Positions 53,120 through 60,801 of a stretch of 64,000 bases of DNA are shown here, piece by piece. Source of the DNA: Chloroflexota bacterium (GTDB lineage: Bacteria; Chloroflexota; Anaerolineae; J036; Brachytrichaceae); NCBI GenBank assembly GCA_030550095.1, contig JAUQQA010000005.1, positions 1-64,000 of the forward strand, given 5' to 3'. The translations under genes were made by a program, and so were the position numbers. How positions within the stretch are numbered: the stretch's first letter is position 1; the number at the start of each line of letters is the position of its first letter. A model generated the notes under the pieces. That model did no database searches. It saw only the letters and a list, made by a program, of their open reading frames with translations, and was not told the origin of the DNA.

Positions 53120-53162
53120 GGTGAAACAGGTGAGCAGCGCCGATGAAGGACGGCGCGACGCT

Positions 53163-53258
53163 ATGTTCCCTACGCTGGCATGACCCAGATCAGGTTCAGC
53201 GGGTCGGCGCCGGATAACTGGGCGCCCTCTCAGCCCGCGTCCGCGGACTCCCCGTTGT
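53163..53258 (-). promoter_or_regulatory. TPP riboswitch (THI element)
   Basis: On the minus strand the conserved blocks appear in order: CGGGGAGTCC, GGCTGAGAGG, a P3 extension, GACCCGCTGAACCTGATCTGG and CATGCCAGCGTAGGGAAC. These match the THI-box consensus CTGAGA...ACCC...GAACCTGAT..GG...ACCAGCG.AGGGA. It precedes the terminator at 53083-53119 and thiN, the expected arrangement for TPP-dependent attenuation. Confidence 0.96.
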
Positions 53259-53267
53259 TCGACTTCG

Positions 53268-53282: not shown

Positions 53283-54896
53283 TCACGCTGTGGCGGGCGC
53301 TGGTTCGGCAGCGCTGGTTTGGCTGCGTCGCAGCCGACGCAAACCCTTGTTGATCGCGGCGAGATAGGCTTTGCCGCTGGCGACGAGCGTATCGGTATCC
53401 GCGCTGCGCCCGCTGAAGATGTATTTGCGCCCTTCGGCGTCGGTCATCTCAACGCGGATGGTGACGTTGGCGATGGCGTCAATGCCTTCCGTCACGGCGT
53501 GCACGTGGAACTCCACCAACTTGGCGTTGGCGCCTGTGATGCGGTTGATGCAGTTGCACACGGCGTTGACGGGGCCGTTGCCCACGGCGGCATCTTGGTG
53601 CGGCTCGCCTTCTGCGTCAATGAGGCGCACGCTTGCGACGGGTGTGCTGCCGGTGCCAGTCGCCACCTGCAGCTCATCGAGTTGGAAAAGGTCGTTGCCG
53701 AGAGCCTCAAACTGATCGGTGAGCAGCGCCTCGATGTCGGCGTCGCTGACGACCTTTTTCTTGTCGCACAGCACCTTGAAGCGCTCAAACGCCTTCTCCA
53801 GCTCCTCGCGCGTGAGGTCGTAGCCCATTTGCTTGAGACGCTCGGCGAAGGCATGGCGCCCGCTGTGCTTGCCCAGCACGAGGTTCGTGCTGTTCCATCC
53901 CACATCCTCGGGGCGCATGATCTCGTAGGTGAGCGGGTTCTTCAACATGCCGTCTTGGTGAATGCCGGCTTCGTGGGCGAAGGCGTTTGCGCCGACGATG
54001 GCTTTGTTGGGCTGGACGGGGATGGAAGTTAGGCTGCTCACCATCTTGCTGGTGCGCACGAGCTGCGTGGTGTCAATGTTGGTGTAAAGCCCGCCGAAGA
54101 ACTGCGAGCGCGTCTTGAGCGCCATCACCACTTCCTCAAGGCTGGTGTTGCCGGCGCGCTCGCCAATGCCGTTGATCGTCACTTCGGCTTGGCGCGCGCC
54201 CGCCATTAAGCCAGCGAGTGTGTTTGCCGTCGCCAAGCCAAGGTCGTTGTGGCAGTGCACGCTGACGATCACCTTGCCCTCTTTGATGCCAGGCACGTGC
54301 TCGACGATGCCAGCGATTAGCTGACCGTACTCTTGCGGCGTGCAGTAGCCGACTGTGTCAGGGATGTTGAGCGTGGTGGCGCCGGCTTCTACCGCGACCT
54401 TGAGCACTTCCCACAGAAATTCGGGGTCGCTGCGACCAGCGTCCTCGGGTGAGAACTCCACGTCTTCGCACAGGCTGCGCGCATAGCTCACCATCTCGCC
54501 GACCTGCTCGATGCACTCGCTGCGGCTGATGCGCAGCTTGTACTGCAGGTGAATGTCGCTGGTGGCGAGGAAGGTGTGGATGCGCGGGCGCTTTGCCCAC
54601 TGCACTGCTGCCCAGGCGGCGTCAATGTCCTTCTTGTTGGCGCGCGCTAGGCTTGCGATCACAGGCGCGTTGTCGAGCTGCCCCACCTCTTGGGCGATCT
54701 TGGTCACGGCTTCGAAGTCGCCTGGCGAGGCGATGGCGAATCCCGCTTCGATGATGTCCACCCCCAGCCGCGCGAGCTGGCGCGCAATCTCCAGCTTCTC
54801 CGCGAGGTTCAACGTTGCGCCGGGGGATTGCTCGCCGTCGCGCAGGGTGGTGTCGAAAATCAACACGCGCTTGGGGTCTAGGTTTTTGAAGTGCAT
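53283..54896 (-). CDS. leuA: 2-isopropylmalate synthase
   Basis: First committed step of leucine synthesis, joining acetyl-CoA and 2-oxoisovalerate. The 537-residue protein starts [20 protein letters not shown], with the HMGL-like barrel motif [29 protein letters not shown] (metal His-x-His) and [21 protein letters not shown]-terminal LeuA regulatory domain (leucine feedback) ends the protein. GGAGAGGAA precedes the ATG. It is the last gene of the ilv operon; no terminator is seen before the TPP promoter. Confidence 0.95.
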
Positions 54897-54915
54897 GGCG
54901 TTCCTCTCCCGTTGC

Positions 54916-56466
54916 TCACAGATGCTGTTGGATAAGCGTGTGTGGTTTTGCGCGCTGCGCCTGCGCCACGATCTGCCCCTCTGCCAACACGGCGCGATGC
55001 GTGATGCAAGGCAGCACGTCTTCAGCATGGTGCGAGACCATCAAAAGGGTGGTGTGCTGCGCAAGTGCCGTGAGCAGCGCGGCAAGTTCCGCGCGCGTGC
55101 TTGCGTCCAGCCCATCGAGGGCTTCGTCGAGGATGAGGAGCTGGGGCTGGTTCACCAACGCGCGCGCCAGCAGCACTTTGCGCGCTTGCCCGTAGCTCAT
55201 CGCCAAGAGGCTGCGCCGCGCGAGCGCCTGCAACCCGAGCTGTTCGATCACGGCGTGCACGCGCTGGCGCTGCGCACGCGTGAGCGGCTGCAACCAGCCC
55301 ACGCTGGCGAAGAAGCCGCTGGCGATCACTTGCTCGGCGGTGAGGTCAACCGCGTAGCGCGCTTGAAATTCGCACGAGACGTAGCCGATGCGCTGCTTGA
55401 TCGCCCACACGTTGCGCAGTGGCGCGCCGTTGAAGCGCTCGATTGTGCCGCGGGCGGGCGCGATCTCGCCGAGGATCAAGCGCAGCAGCGTGCTTTTGCC
55501 GACGCCGTTGTCGCCCACAAGCAGCCAGTGCTCGCCCGCGTTGATGCGCCACGTGAGATCATGCAGCACGAGCGGCTCGCCGCTATCTGGCGCAGCGCCG
55601 ACGTTAGTGAGCTTGATCACGAACGGTTGAGAGTCACGCGCGGCGTCGTCGAGCGGCTGCCATGCCTCGCGTTGCGGCGAGCGTGTGCGCGAGGGCAGGA
55701 CGACGTGTGTGCCGATGCGCGCGATGCGCCCCTCGCGCAGCTCAAGCGTGCGGTTCACAGCGGCTGGGATTTCGTGCGGGCGGTGCGTGGTGATCACCAA
55801 CTGCGTGCCTTGCGCAGCGAGCTGCTGAAGCACATCGAGCAAGGCGTGGCGTGTGCGTGCGTCTAGCCCGACACCGATCTCGTCGAGCAGCAGCACGTCG
55901 GGCTGGCGGATGATCGCGCGCGCGATCAGGGCGCGCCGGAGTTGCCCTTGTGAGAGGCGATCGAACGGCGCATCAGCAAGGTGCACGATGCCGACTTGCT
56001 CAAGCGCGCGCAGGACGGCTGTCCATTCGCTCGGGGTGGGTGTGCGCGTGATCACTTCTGTGCCAAGCAAGCCGGTGAACACAAGCTGCGCGGTGGTCAT
56101 GCGCGCGCCGAAGTCGTCGCCGTGGCGCCGTGCAAGGCGCAAGTAGCGCTGTTGTTGCTCAGCGCTGACGAGCGCCATGCGCTGCGTCGCGCCGATGGGC
56201 GAGCGCGTTGGTTCGCCGTCGAAGGCGTATTCGCGCTTGCCGCTGTTTGGCGCCGGCCAAATCTCGCCGCGCACAAGGCGCAAAAACGTGCTCTTGCCAG
56301 CGCCGTTGGGTCCGAGCACAGCCCAGTGCTCGCCGCGATGGAGCGCCCACGTGATGTTGTGCAACACCCAGCGCCCCTCGAGCATCACGTGCACGCGCTC
56401 GAGACGCACAACGGGTGAGCCAGCGCTCGAAACGGAGGACGGCGTTGCCCCACTGTGCCCCGACAT
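54916..56466 (-). CDS. Double-domain ABC ATPase (ModF-like)
   Basis: A 516-residue protein with two ATPase domains and no membrane part. Domain 1 has [17 protein letters not shown], signature [14 protein letters not shown] and [11 protein letters not shown] (Glu replaced within the usual DEP). Domain 2 has [17 protein letters not shown], signature [14 protein letters not shown] and [11 protein letters not shown]. This layout is that of ModF/PhrA. Neither substrate-binding protein nor permease is nearby, and it sits between ilvC (5-nt gap) and leuA (19-nt gap). A role linked to branched-chain amino acids is positional inference only. Confidence 0.85.
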
Positions 56467-56471
56467 GCGCG

Positions 56472-58039
<1,568 letters not shown>

Positions 58040-58049
58040 GGCTGCTCCC

Positions 58050-59792
58050 TCACTTCAAGAAGTCCATCCCGCCACCTAGGGCTGCTGGCTGAATGATCGG
58101 GCGGCGCGTCATCTCGTTCAACGACTTGCCGGGCTGCACCATCGGGAAGACGTTGGTCTCCTTCTCCACCTGGAACTCGATCAGCACGGGGCCTTCGTGT
58201 TCGCGCGCGATGCGGATCGCCTCACGGGCTTCGGAGCGCGTGCGCGCGCGCAAGCCGCAGATGCCGTAGGCTTCGGCAAGCTTCACGAAGTCTGGCGTCC
58301 ACATCTCGACCGCGGAGTAGCGCTTGTTGTGCATCAGCTCCTGCCACTGGCGCACCATGCCAAGGTAGTTGTTGTTGATGACGGCGATTTTGATGTCGAG
58401 CTTCTCCTGCACGATGGTGGCGAGCTCGGGAATGCTCATTTGGAAGCCGCCGTCGCCCACAATCGCCCACACTTCGTCCTGCGGGCGGCCGAGCTTGGCG
58501 CCGACCGCAGCGGGCACGCCAAAGCCCATTGCCCCCAAGCCGCCGCTGGTGATGAGCTGGTTCTTGCGCTTGTGCAGGAAGTATTGCGTTTCCCACATTT
58601 GATGTTGACCGACGTCGGTGCACACGGTGCACTCGCCGTTGGTCTCCTCCCAGATCATGCGCATCACGTGCGGCGCCAGCAGCGTGTGATCGGGGAACTC
58701 GACCTGCATGATGTCGTGCGCCTGCGTGTCGGCGCGCCACTCGTTGATTTGCTCCAACCAGGCGGGGTAGCTGCGTTTCTCGATCATCGGCGTCAGCTGA
58801 CGGAGCACGTCTTTCAGATTGCCCACGATGCCCACATCTGCGGGCACGTTCTTGTTGATCTCCGCCGGGTCAATGTCCACGTGGATCACGCGCGCGTTCT
58901 TGGCGTAGGTCTTCAGGTTGCCCGTCACGCGGTCGTCGAAGCGCATGCCGAGCGCGATCAGAAGGTCGGCGTTGGCGATCGCCATGTTGACGTAGGCCTC
59001 GCCGTGCATGCCCATCATGCGCAGGTTGAGCGGGTGATCTTCGCTCAGCACGCCGATGCCCAAGAGCGTCGTGGCGACGGGGATGCCGCTCTTCTCGACG
59101 AACTCGCGGAATTCCTCGTGTGCGTTGGCGTGCTTGATGCCTTGCCCGGCGAGGATGATCGGGCGGCGCGCGTTGTCAATGAGTTCTTTGGCGCGTTGCA
59201 GCAGCAGCGGCAAGTTCTGCTTGCCCATTGGCTTCACGGCGCGGTAGCCGCGCAGCTTGACTTCGGTGATAGGCTCGTAGTCGGTCATCTTCTGCTGCAC
59301 GTCCTTGCAGATATCCACAAGCACAGGTCCAGGGCGACCAGTGCGCGCGATGTAAAACGCCTCTGCCAACACCTGCGGCAATTCCTCGACGTTCATGACG
59401 AGATAGTTGTGCTTGGTGATCGGCAGCGTCACGCCCGTCACGTCGGTCTCTTGGAACGCGTCGGTGCCGACGAGGTGCGAAGCGACTTGACCCGTAATGG
59501 CGACTACTGCCGAGGAGTCCATCATGGCGTTTGCCAAGCCCGTGACGAGGTTGAGCGCGCCGGGACCTGAGGTTGCCATGCACACGCCGACTTTGCCCGT
59601 GGCGCGGAAGTAAGCGTCGGCGGCGAAGGCGGCGTTCTCCTCATGACGCACAAGCACGTGCCGAATGCGATCCTGGTAATCCACGAGCGCGTCGTAGGTG
59701 GGCAAGATCGCGCCCCCAGGGTAACCGAACACGACCTCAACGCCTTGCTGAAGCAACGATTCCCAAATGATTTGAGCGCCTGTTAACTTCAT
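58050..59792 (-). CDS. ilvB: Acetolactate synthase large subunit
   Basis: Thiamine-pyrophosphate enzyme that starts valine, leucine and isoleucine synthesis. The 580-residue protein starts MKLTGAQIIWESLLQQGVEV, with GYPGGAILPTYDAL, the catalytic Glu in VRHEENAAFAADAY, the FAD region GMHGEAYVNMAI and the TPP/Mg motif GDGGFQMSIPELATI...NNNYLGMV. An AAAGGAG site precedes the ATG. It is the first structural gene after the attenuator, so flux control and TPP supply (thiN) are encoded side by side. Confidence 0.96.
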   Translation of the reverse strand: MKLTGAQIIWESLLQQGVEVVFGYPGGAILPTYDALVDYQDRIRHVLVRHEENAAFAADAYFRATGKVGVCMATSGPGALNLVTGLANAMMDSSAVVAITGQVASHLVGTDAFQETDVTGVTLPITKHNYLVMNVEELPQVLAEAFYIARTGRPGPVLVDICKDVQQKMTDYEPITEVKLRGYRAVKPMGKQNLPLLLQRAKELIDNARRPIILAGQGIKHANAHEEFREFVEKSGIPVATTLLGIGVLSEDHPLNLRMMGMHGEAYVNMAIANADLLIALGMRFDDRVTGNLKTYAKNARVIHVDIDPAEINKNVPADVGIVGNLKDVLRQLTPMIEKRSYPAWLEQINEWRADTQAHDIMQVEFPDHTLLAPHVMRMIWEETNGECTVCTDVGQHQMWETQYFLHKRKNQLITSGGLGAMGFGVPAAVGAKLGRPQDEVWAIVGDGGFQMSIPELATIVQEKLDIKIAVINNNYLGMVRQWQELMHNKRYSAVEMWTPDFVKLAEAYGICGLRARTRSEAREAIRIAREHEGPVLIEFQVEKETNVFPMVQPGKSLNEMTRRPIIQPAALGGGMDFLK

Positions 59793-59853: not shown

Positions 59854-59879
59854 AAAAAGCCCTCCCGTTTAGGAGGGCT
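59854..59879 (-). terminator. Attenuator terminator (3:4 hairpin) before ilvB
   Basis: On the minus strand AGCCCTCC / GGAGGGCT forms an 8-bp stem with loop TAAACG, followed by TTTTT. It lies 62 nt before ilvB ATG and competes with the antiterminator. Confidence 0.93.
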
Positions 59880-59950
59880 TCTTCCAGTCGCGCGCTGCTC
59901 ACGCCTGGCACGTCGCCATCCTAAACGGGCGTTGGTCCTCGCCGCTAAGG
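59854..59950 (-). promoter_or_regulatory. Transcription attenuator of the ilv-leu operon
   Basis: Three mutually exclusive pairings are readable on the minus strand. Segment 1 (59950-59942, CCTTAGCGG) can pair with segment 2 (59927-59919), 8 of 9 positions. Segment 2 (59929-59919, CCCGTTTAGGA) is a perfect 11-nt complement of segment 3 (59874-59864, TCCTAAACGGG). Segment 3 also forms the terminator with segment 4. A ribosome stalled on the Leu/Val codons just upstream would cover segment 1 and favour 2:3, allowing transcription. Confidence 0.9.
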
Positions 59951-59994
59951 ACGAGGAGCGCAAGGACGACGACGACCAAGAGCAAGCTGTTCAT
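59899..59994 (-). CDS. ilv operon leader peptide
   Basis: A 31-codon frame begins ATG at 59994 and ends TGA at 59901-59899. Codons 4-16 encode LLLVVVVLALLVL: seven Leu and five Val in thirteen residues. The tail is SGEDQRPFRMATCQA. This composition, position 100 nt before ilvB, and overlap with attenuator segments 1 and 2 identify it as the sensor of charged tRNA-Leu and tRNA-Val. Isoleucine codons are absent. The 5' leader is about 7 nt long. Confidence 0.93.
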   Translation of the reverse strand: MNSLLLVVVVLALLVLSGEDQRPFRMATCQA

Positions 59995-60007
59995 GAAAGC
60001 TGCGCGC

Positions 60008-60036
60008 TTTATACAAGCTCCGCCAGGTCCTGTCAA
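60008..60036 (-). promoter_or_regulatory. Promoter of the ilv-leu operon
   Basis: On the minus strand TTGACA (60036-60031) and TATAAA (60013-60008) are separated by 17 bp. The predicted start is about 60001. Confidence 0.85.
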
Positions 60037-60049
60037 CCGTTAAAATCAG

Positions 60050-60066
60050 CGCCTGTCATACAGGCG
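60050..60066. promoter_or_regulatory. Palindromic candidate operator for the GntR/FadR regulator
   Basis: CGCCTG-TCATA-CAGGCG is a perfect inverted repeat with core GT-N3-AC, the core of FadR-subfamily operators. It overlaps the expected start of the regulator gene and lies 14 bp beyond the ilv -35 box. Confidence 0.6.
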
Positions 60067-60072
60067 GTTCCT

Positions 60073-60801
60073 ATGGGCACAGATCATGAAACGACCTCGC
60101 TTGTTGCGCGCGTGGCGGCGCAGATTGTGGAGCGCTTGGTGCATGACAAGGCACGCCCAGGCGACGTGTTGCCCGCAGAGGCGAAGCTCTCGGCTGAGTT
60201 CAACGTCAGCCGCACGGTGGTGCGCGAGGCGCTGCGCTTTTTGGCAGGGCGCGGCTTCCTCACAATCGTCAATGGGCGTGGCGCGGTGGTGCAGCCGCTG
60301 AGCGAGACGTCGCTGAACGCTTACTTCACCCAAGCCGTTGCCATCGAGCAGGTTTCTTTGCGCGAGGTGATGGAGGTGCGAAAGCCGCTCGAGGTGCAGT
60401 GCGCGCGCCTCGCCGCGCAACGCCGAACGCTGGACCAACTCGACGCCATGCAATCGCTGGTGCAACAGATGCGCCGCAGCATCGGCAACCCCGACCGCTA
60501 CGTTGAGCTCGACCGTGCGCTGCATCGCGCGATCGCCGAAGCGACAGGCAACGTGTTGTTGGCGCATCTCGTCGGCGCGCTGCGCGACGCGATCAACGTG
60601 CAAACGCACGAGATGCTCTACCGTCGCCGCGACCGCCAGCAGCTCGAGCGCGTACACGCGCTGCACGAAGCCATCGTCACCGAGATCGGCTATCGCAATC
60701 CTGATGCCGCTGCGCGCGCGATGGACGTGCACTTCAGCGAGGCGCTCATGTTCCTTGTGCAGCGCCAAGAAGAACAACGCCACGCGCCGCGTCGGCTATG
60801 A
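60073..60801 (+). CDS. GntR-family transcriptional regulator, FadR subfamily
   Basis: A 242-residue regulator. The N-terminal winged helix has ERLVHDKARPGDVLPAEAKL and SRTVVREALRFLAGRGFL. The C-terminal FCD domain has VMEVRKPLEVQCARLAAQR, ELDRALHRAIAEATGN, HALHEAIV and AMDVHFSEAL; its His and Asp residues suit metal binding. Effectors of the subfamily are small organic acids. ATG 60073 is chosen because the longer frame runs through the ilv leader. A TAAAAT box is at 60041-60046. Divergence from ilvB makes that operon a possible target. Confidence 0.9.
   Translation: MGTDHETTSLVARVAAQIVERLVHDKARPGDVLPAEAKLSAEFNVSRTVVREALRFLAGRGFLTIVNGRGAVVQPLSETSLNAYFTQAVAIEQVSLREVMEVRKPLEVQCARLAAQRRTLDQLDAMQSLVQQMRRSIGNPDRYVELDRALHRAIAEATGNVLLAHLVGALRDAINVQTHEMLYRRRDRQQLERVHALHEAIVTEIGYRNPDAAARAMDVHFSEALMFLVQRQEEQRHAPRRL

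Follow-up and report, generated by a model that had tools for sequence, protein, structure and literature searches.

Leader-peptide attenuation is best known from Proteobacteria and Actinobacteria, with some cases in Firmicutes. A short reading frame rich in Leu and Val codons ahead of a branched-chain amino acid (BCAA) operon in a bacterium assigned to Chloroflexota raises the question of whether this type of control operates there, and how widely. The frame lies on the minus strand of a 64,000-nucleotide (nt) stretch of contig JAUQQA010000005.1, the whole of which is called the window below. A first-pass annotation had taken it for a classical Leu/Val attenuator in what looked like a Chloroflexota genome. 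The host was recognized correctly: relatives by IlvB are labeled Candidatus Roseilinea, Thermoflexales, and Anaerolineae, phylum Chloroflexota. The attenuator reading is supported at the sequence level by the frame and its codons, the RNA pairings, the terminator, the promoter, the operon, conservation, and co-evolution. We give a probability of about 0.9 to classical ribosome-mediated transcription attenuation of ilvBNC-ABC-leuA by charged tRNA-Leu and tRNA-Val. The features are listed in Table 1.

Table 1. Positions of the features discussed in the text. Coordinates are those of the window, except for the last line, which refers to another contig (C4) of the same genome.
Feature	Position	Strand	Evidence
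-35 element, TTGACA	60031..60036	-	Read from sequence
-10 element, TATAAA	60008..60013	-	17 bp from -35
Leader peptide frame, 31 codons + TGA, MNSLLLVVVVLALLVLSGEDQRPFRMATCQA	59899..59994	-	L/V/I-rich in 25/25 family and 49/60 class loci
Region 1, Val/Leu codon run GTCGTCGTCGTCCTT, 5' arm of predicted protector (anti-antiterminator) hairpin	59963..59980	-	RNAfold
Small hairpin nested in protector	59936..59957	-	Fold
Region 2, antiterminator strand CCCGTTTAGGAtGGC	59915..59929	-	Fold, complementarity, family alignment
Region 3, terminator 5' arm + loop GCCcTCCTAAACGGG, pairs with region 2	59864..59878	-	Fold, complementarity
Intrinsic terminator, GCCCTCC-TAAACG-GGAGGGC then TTTTT	59854..59878	-	Sequence, fold
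ilvB, acetolactate synthase large subunit	58053..59792	-	TIGR00118, 729.5 bits (cut-off 538)
ilvN, acetolactate synthase small subunit	57530..58039	-	TIGR00119, NF008864 above cut-off
ilvC, ketol-acid reductoisomerase	56475..57494	-	NF004017 above cut-off
Double ABC ATPase, ModF-like	54919..56466	-	NF008186 (ModF) best, below cut-off; PF00005 twice
leuA, 2-isopropylmalate synthase	53286..54899	-	NF002086, TIGR00973 above cut-off
TPP riboswitch, after leuA	53150-53264	-	
Palindrome GCCTGTATGACAGGC, candidate operator of a GntR-type regulator	60051..60065	.	Family conservation, copies elsewhere
Divergent GntR/FCD transcription factor gene	60073..60801	+	PF00392 and PF07729
T-box-like element upstream of trpE (L252)	C4:21411-21701		E 1e-11, 56.6 bits, below gathering score of 93

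Leader frame and alternative RNA structures before ilvB

The ilv promoter reads as sigma-70-type and has the consensus elements and 17-bp spacing first described. TTGACA lies 16 to 18 bp from a -10 in 24 of the 25 family loci introduced below, and strong promoters of the form TTGACA-17-TATAxT lie upstream of the leader. The leader frame likewise has the length and composition claimed for it: residues 4 to 16 comprise seven Leu, five Val, and one Ala, and the stop codon is at 59901-59899 (minus strand). The frame makes up most of a promoter-to-terminator transcript of about 150 nt. ilvB begins at 59792 with AAAGGAG ahead of it, and profile matches bear out the operon ilvBNC-ABC-leuA, whose genes are the makers of Val, Leu, and Ile precursors. 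The ModF-like double ABC ATPase gene sits inside this BCAA operon, with ilvC on one side and leuA on the other. The TPP riboswitch is flanked by leuA and, on its other side, by genes for a thiamine diphosphokinase and a thiamine ABC transporter binding protein.

Folding of the minus-strand leader with RNAfold, together with a scan of stall positions, gave alternative, mutually exclusive pairings, as had been proposed. The arms of the U-tailed terminator are GCCCTCC (59878-59872) and GGAGGGC (59865-59859), with TTTTT at 59858-59854. The antiterminator match of 11 nt is exact (CCCGTTTAGGA at 59929-59919, complementary to TCCTAAACGGG at 59874-59864), and the pairing is longer than had been claimed: after one mismatch (T59918/C59875), GGC (59917-59915) pairs with GCC (59878-59876), for a total of 11 bp, one mismatch, and 3 bp (59929-59915 with 59878-59864). 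The calculated energy of this duplex is -26.5 kcal/mol, against a mean of -13.4 (standard deviation, 2.4) for dinucleotide-shuffled leaders, none of which was as low in 2,000 shuffles.

When the leader was folded without the terminator, the codon run (59980-59963) paired with 59922-59904 in a long hairpin, the predicted protector. Because 59922-59904 overlaps the antiterminator strand (59929-59915), the protector excludes the antiterminator. The small hairpin nested within it (arms 59957-59950 and 59943-59936) has GCTCC...GGAGC-type arms that, by inspection, covary in the family alignment. Compared with synonymous recodings, the protector was better at P values of ≤0.05 in 9 of the 25 family loci (median z, -1.2); against synonymous codons, the predicted hairpin has only moderate support. 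A pseudoknot of the leader loop GUCCU with AGGAY was considered and dropped, since the nested protector fold explains the conserved bases without it.

With these elements, a slowed ribosome would very probably turn the operon on by way of the Leu/Val frame and a switchable hairpin. RNA polymerase would start shortly 5' of the leader ATG. If Leu and Val were plentiful, the ribosome would reach the stop codon and either cover region 2 or let it pair with the Val-codon run; with region 2 occupied, the U-tailed terminator would form and transcription would end before ilvB. If Leu or Val were short, the ribosome would stall in the codon run and mask region 1, and the 14-bp pairing of region 2 (one mismatch) with the terminator's 5' arm and loop would then allow read-through. 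Translation of the leader, stalling, read-through, and the response to amino acids are what we infer from this arrangement.

We modeled stalling by equilibrium folding, without kinetics, letting the ribosome hide everything up to 12 nt beyond its codon. On the window's own leader, the probability of the antiterminator was 0.67 to 0.99 with the ribosome at codons 12 to 17, and that of the terminator was 1.00 once the ribosome stood at codon 19 or beyond. The same crude model did not favor the antiterminator for stalls at Val codons 9 and 10. When the ribosome was placed on the stop codon, the terminator won in 77 of 78 loci; with the ribosome stalled in the codon run, equilibrium folding put the antiterminator ahead in only 31 of the 78.

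Conservation and co-evolution of leader and terminator

IlvB was found in 25 of the 28 genomes of the family sample (in the genome collection, the order consists of the same 28 genomes). All 25 ilvB loci of this Candidatus Roseilinea lineage have an L/V/I-rich leader, CGTTTAGGAYGGCG or a variant of it, and a U-tailed terminator. The leader of L014 has no ATG and would start at TTG, and in two family genomes (L025 and L026) the leader is shorter, with its stop ahead of region 2.

The class survey covered 60 ilvB upstream regions, each about 3 kb long and mostly drawn from separate Anaerolineae genera. We looked for a short frame in which 9 or more of 13 codons are L/V/I, with a terminator behind it. 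Leader and terminator were present in 49 of the 60 loci on the sense strand and in none of the 60 on the antisense strand. The leader is located directly before ilvB or about 1.3 to 2.5 kb upstream, and at some of the distant-leader loci ilvD lies in between (ilvD-like C termini are visible in the frames). Judging from these loci, the same design precedes ilvB itself or heads an ilv transcription unit further upstream in most of Anaerolineae. The leader frame and the complementarity, the loss of which in relatives the first-pass annotation had named as evidence against an attenuator, are thus conserved in both family and class. The 59 regions examined from other Chloroflexota classes yielded about ten leaders of this kind, spread over several lineages; at one of these loci (G276) the leader is MVAHFVSLILLVLVLLLSLIGGWSKRV.

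At the loci where both leader and terminator were called, the antiterminator was better than shuffles (P ≤ 0.05) in 22 of 24 family loci, 31 of 45 class loci, and 6 of 9 others. Because the spacers are too variable for safe alignment, we used a swap test instead of a per-pair covariation count. Across 60 loci, one or a few per lineage, a locus's own leader and terminator paired with a mean energy of -17.3 kcal/mol versus -13.0 kcal/mol for swapped partners (z = -12.6; 0 of 10,000 permutations). Kinship alone should not yield this result, since swapping breaks only pairs that changed together. By this test, leader and terminator co-evolve. In 55 of the 60 loci, the distance from the start of the codon run to the start of the antiterminator strand is 46 to 73 nt.

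It had also been suggested that the leader is almost without a 5' untranslated region. In the window, 13 nt separate the -10 (60008) from the leader ATG (59994), and from the position of the -10, RNA polymerase would start about 5 to 8 nt 5' of the ATG. This distance is 11 to 13 nt in eleven family loci, 16 to 43 nt in most of the other family loci, and usually 20 to 55 nt in class loci. From these spacings, near-leaderless initiation would belong to part of the Roseilinea lineage; the suggestion holds for about half of the family but not as a general feature. Among 68 loci with a good promoter, a Shine-Dalgarno-like sequence precedes the leader in only 15.

Other controls and rival explanations

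The palindrome in the window lies 14 bp upstream of the -35 and 7 bp before the divergent GntR/FCD gene. Palindromes of the type CCTRTnnGAYAGG are found 14 to 15 bp upstream of the -35 in 14 of the 25 family loci; L025, at which no promoter was called, also has one. They are absent from four family genera, in which the attenuator is kept. Elsewhere in the window's own genome, there is an exact copy upstream of ilvD and a copy with 1 mismatch upstream of leuC, and in neither of these two upstream regions was an L/V/I leader with a terminator found. It is a fair guess that a GntR-type BCAA regulator acts through the palindrome on this candidate regulon as a second layer of control, one that the first-pass annotation overlooked. 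A third exact match (on C13) was taken as chance; it falls within or close to a SorC-type regulator gene that has a dehydrogenase subunit as its neighbor.

The window leader gave no match to Rfam models at the gathering score, the T-box model (RF00230) included, and a lenient search returned only sub-threshold matches, the best being Phe_leader at 26.3 bits versus 55. There were also no Rfam matches in 16 further loci without a leader (11 from Anaerolineae) or in four leader-bearing loci from other Chloroflexota classes. T-boxes above the gathering score were found upstream of ilvB in 11 loci of other Chloroflexota lineages (L198, L201, L205, L208, L212, L215, L220, L221, L222, L227, and L228). 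The window's own genome has three T-box matches, one of them directly upstream of trpE; scanned alone, the trpE element gave no match at the gathering score. For Dehalococcoides, an earlier study described T-boxes at trpE (PMC2494555). From the T-box matches and the ilvB leader in one genome, the lineage would have both systems, with the ribosome-read one serving ilv.

The frame might encode a small hydrophobic membrane protein working as such, followed by the ordinary terminator of a small gene; the peptide is strongly hydrophobic, and leaders of 20 to 50 residues occur throughout the class. However, length, start, and C terminus differ between loci, whereas the L/V/I run is kept, and so is its spacing of about 46 to 73 nt from the antiterminator. 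Conservation is at the level of nucleotides (CGTTTAGGAYGGCG) and not of residues, and those nucleotides co-evolve with the terminator. The runs consist of the pathway's three end products, with few Phe, Met, or Trp, and the frame is found ahead of ilv genes, all of which makes a membrane protein highly improbable. We also regard it as very unlikely that the terminator is the expression platform of a metabolite riboswitch, a T-box, or a ppGpp riboswitch and that the frame is accidental. The T-boxes before ilvB in other Chloroflexota lineages, and those in the same genome, would fit such an element, but the leader matched no Rfam model at the gathering score, the transcript is mostly leader frame, and the L/V/I frame is kept at every family locus and at most class loci.

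Control of the terminator chiefly through a protein or Rho-linked effects, with leader translation providing only coupling, has been proposed for certain leu and ilv leaders of Actinobacteria, and changing codons in a similar-looking ilvB leader of Streptomyces coelicolor brought no response (both PMC1262725). The GntR-type gene and the conserved palindrome at the promoter also speak for this kind of control. Yet the palindrome lies upstream of the promoter and is missing in family members that keep the attenuator, and the antiterminator and terminator, which co-evolve, suffice for a codon-dependent switch; we find a mainly protein- or Rho-based control very improbable.

Relation to known attenuators

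The attenuators of ilvBN, ilvGMEDA, and leu in Escherichia coli work by the same principle and with the same controlling amino acids. They are cited in PMC10272879 and PMC5794164; by Rfam models, the window has no sequence similarity to them. The attenuator of ilvBNC in Corynebacterium glutamicum (IlvL; ilvB-II motif, PMC10272879; mutational study, PMC11857589) likewise places a BCAA-codon leader, an antiterminator, and a terminator ahead of ilvBNC, and it has a protector such as is predicted for the window. There, too, the mRNA has next to no sequence before the leader: transcription begins a single nucleotide from its start codon (PMC11857589); a near-leaderless start also appears in the title of Morbach 2000, cited in PMC10272879. 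The C. glutamicum leader has 15 codons (MTIIRLVVVTARRLP), whereas the window leader has 31. The window differs further in its 14-bp antiterminator with one mismatch, its phylum, the presence of ABC-leuA in the operon, and the lack of a match to Rfam models.

The Leu-rich attenuator peptide of Staphylococcus aureus ilvD (PMC5794164) is similar in that leader control of an ilv-leu operon is combined with a DNA-binding regulator; that regulator is CodY, whereas the window's would be of GntR type, and the phylum differs. The ilvB-OMG motif (41 representatives from "various bacterial phyla," PMC10272879) is likewise an ilvB-associated RNA with an upstream frame rich in BCAA codons. Its leaders are also rich in Thr, and window-type leaders are not; the two may overlap.

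The mechanism is thus already known from ilv and leu attenuators, and what is likely new is an unrecorded phylum-scale family whose distribution is unusually broad and well supported. The searchable literature contained no description in Chloroflexota; it left out Lopatovskaya 2010 (Mol Biol 44:128), the comparative study in which Chloroflexota cases would most probably be listed. A survey from 2010 had leader peptides only in Proteobacteria and Actinobacteria, plus its own find in Firmicutes (PMC2965389); later cases include S. aureus (PMC5794164) and Leptospira and the ilvB-OMG motif (PMC10272879). That a case in Chloroflexota extends the known range, as had been proposed, is likely, but "a complete case" was too modest for a system found class-wide (49 of 60 loci).

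Taking the results together, we lean slightly toward a joint reading in which the attenuator stands in place of the T-boxes of other Chloroflexota and coexists with T-boxes that serve other pathways of that cell. For the Roseilinea lineage, this reading would add Val codons that serve as the protector arm, a near-leaderless leader start, and a GntR-type regulator acting on ilv, ilvD, and leuC. A system spread over a whole Chloroflexota class amounts to many natural variants of one switch. Within a single phylum, and within a single cell, leaders and T-boxes would share out the same job, and the replacement of leader by T-box, or the reverse, can be studied on a tree. The class alignment could seed an Rfam family and the annotation of such leaders.

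A different short frame, e.g., MKNLCLHRIRVVVLGVGVFIPSPVWREPAS, was seen at Acidobacteriota ilvB loci (L076, L078, L080, L083, L090, and L095). A terminator lies behind it in some of these loci, and it is possibly part of a separate leader-peptide attenuator.
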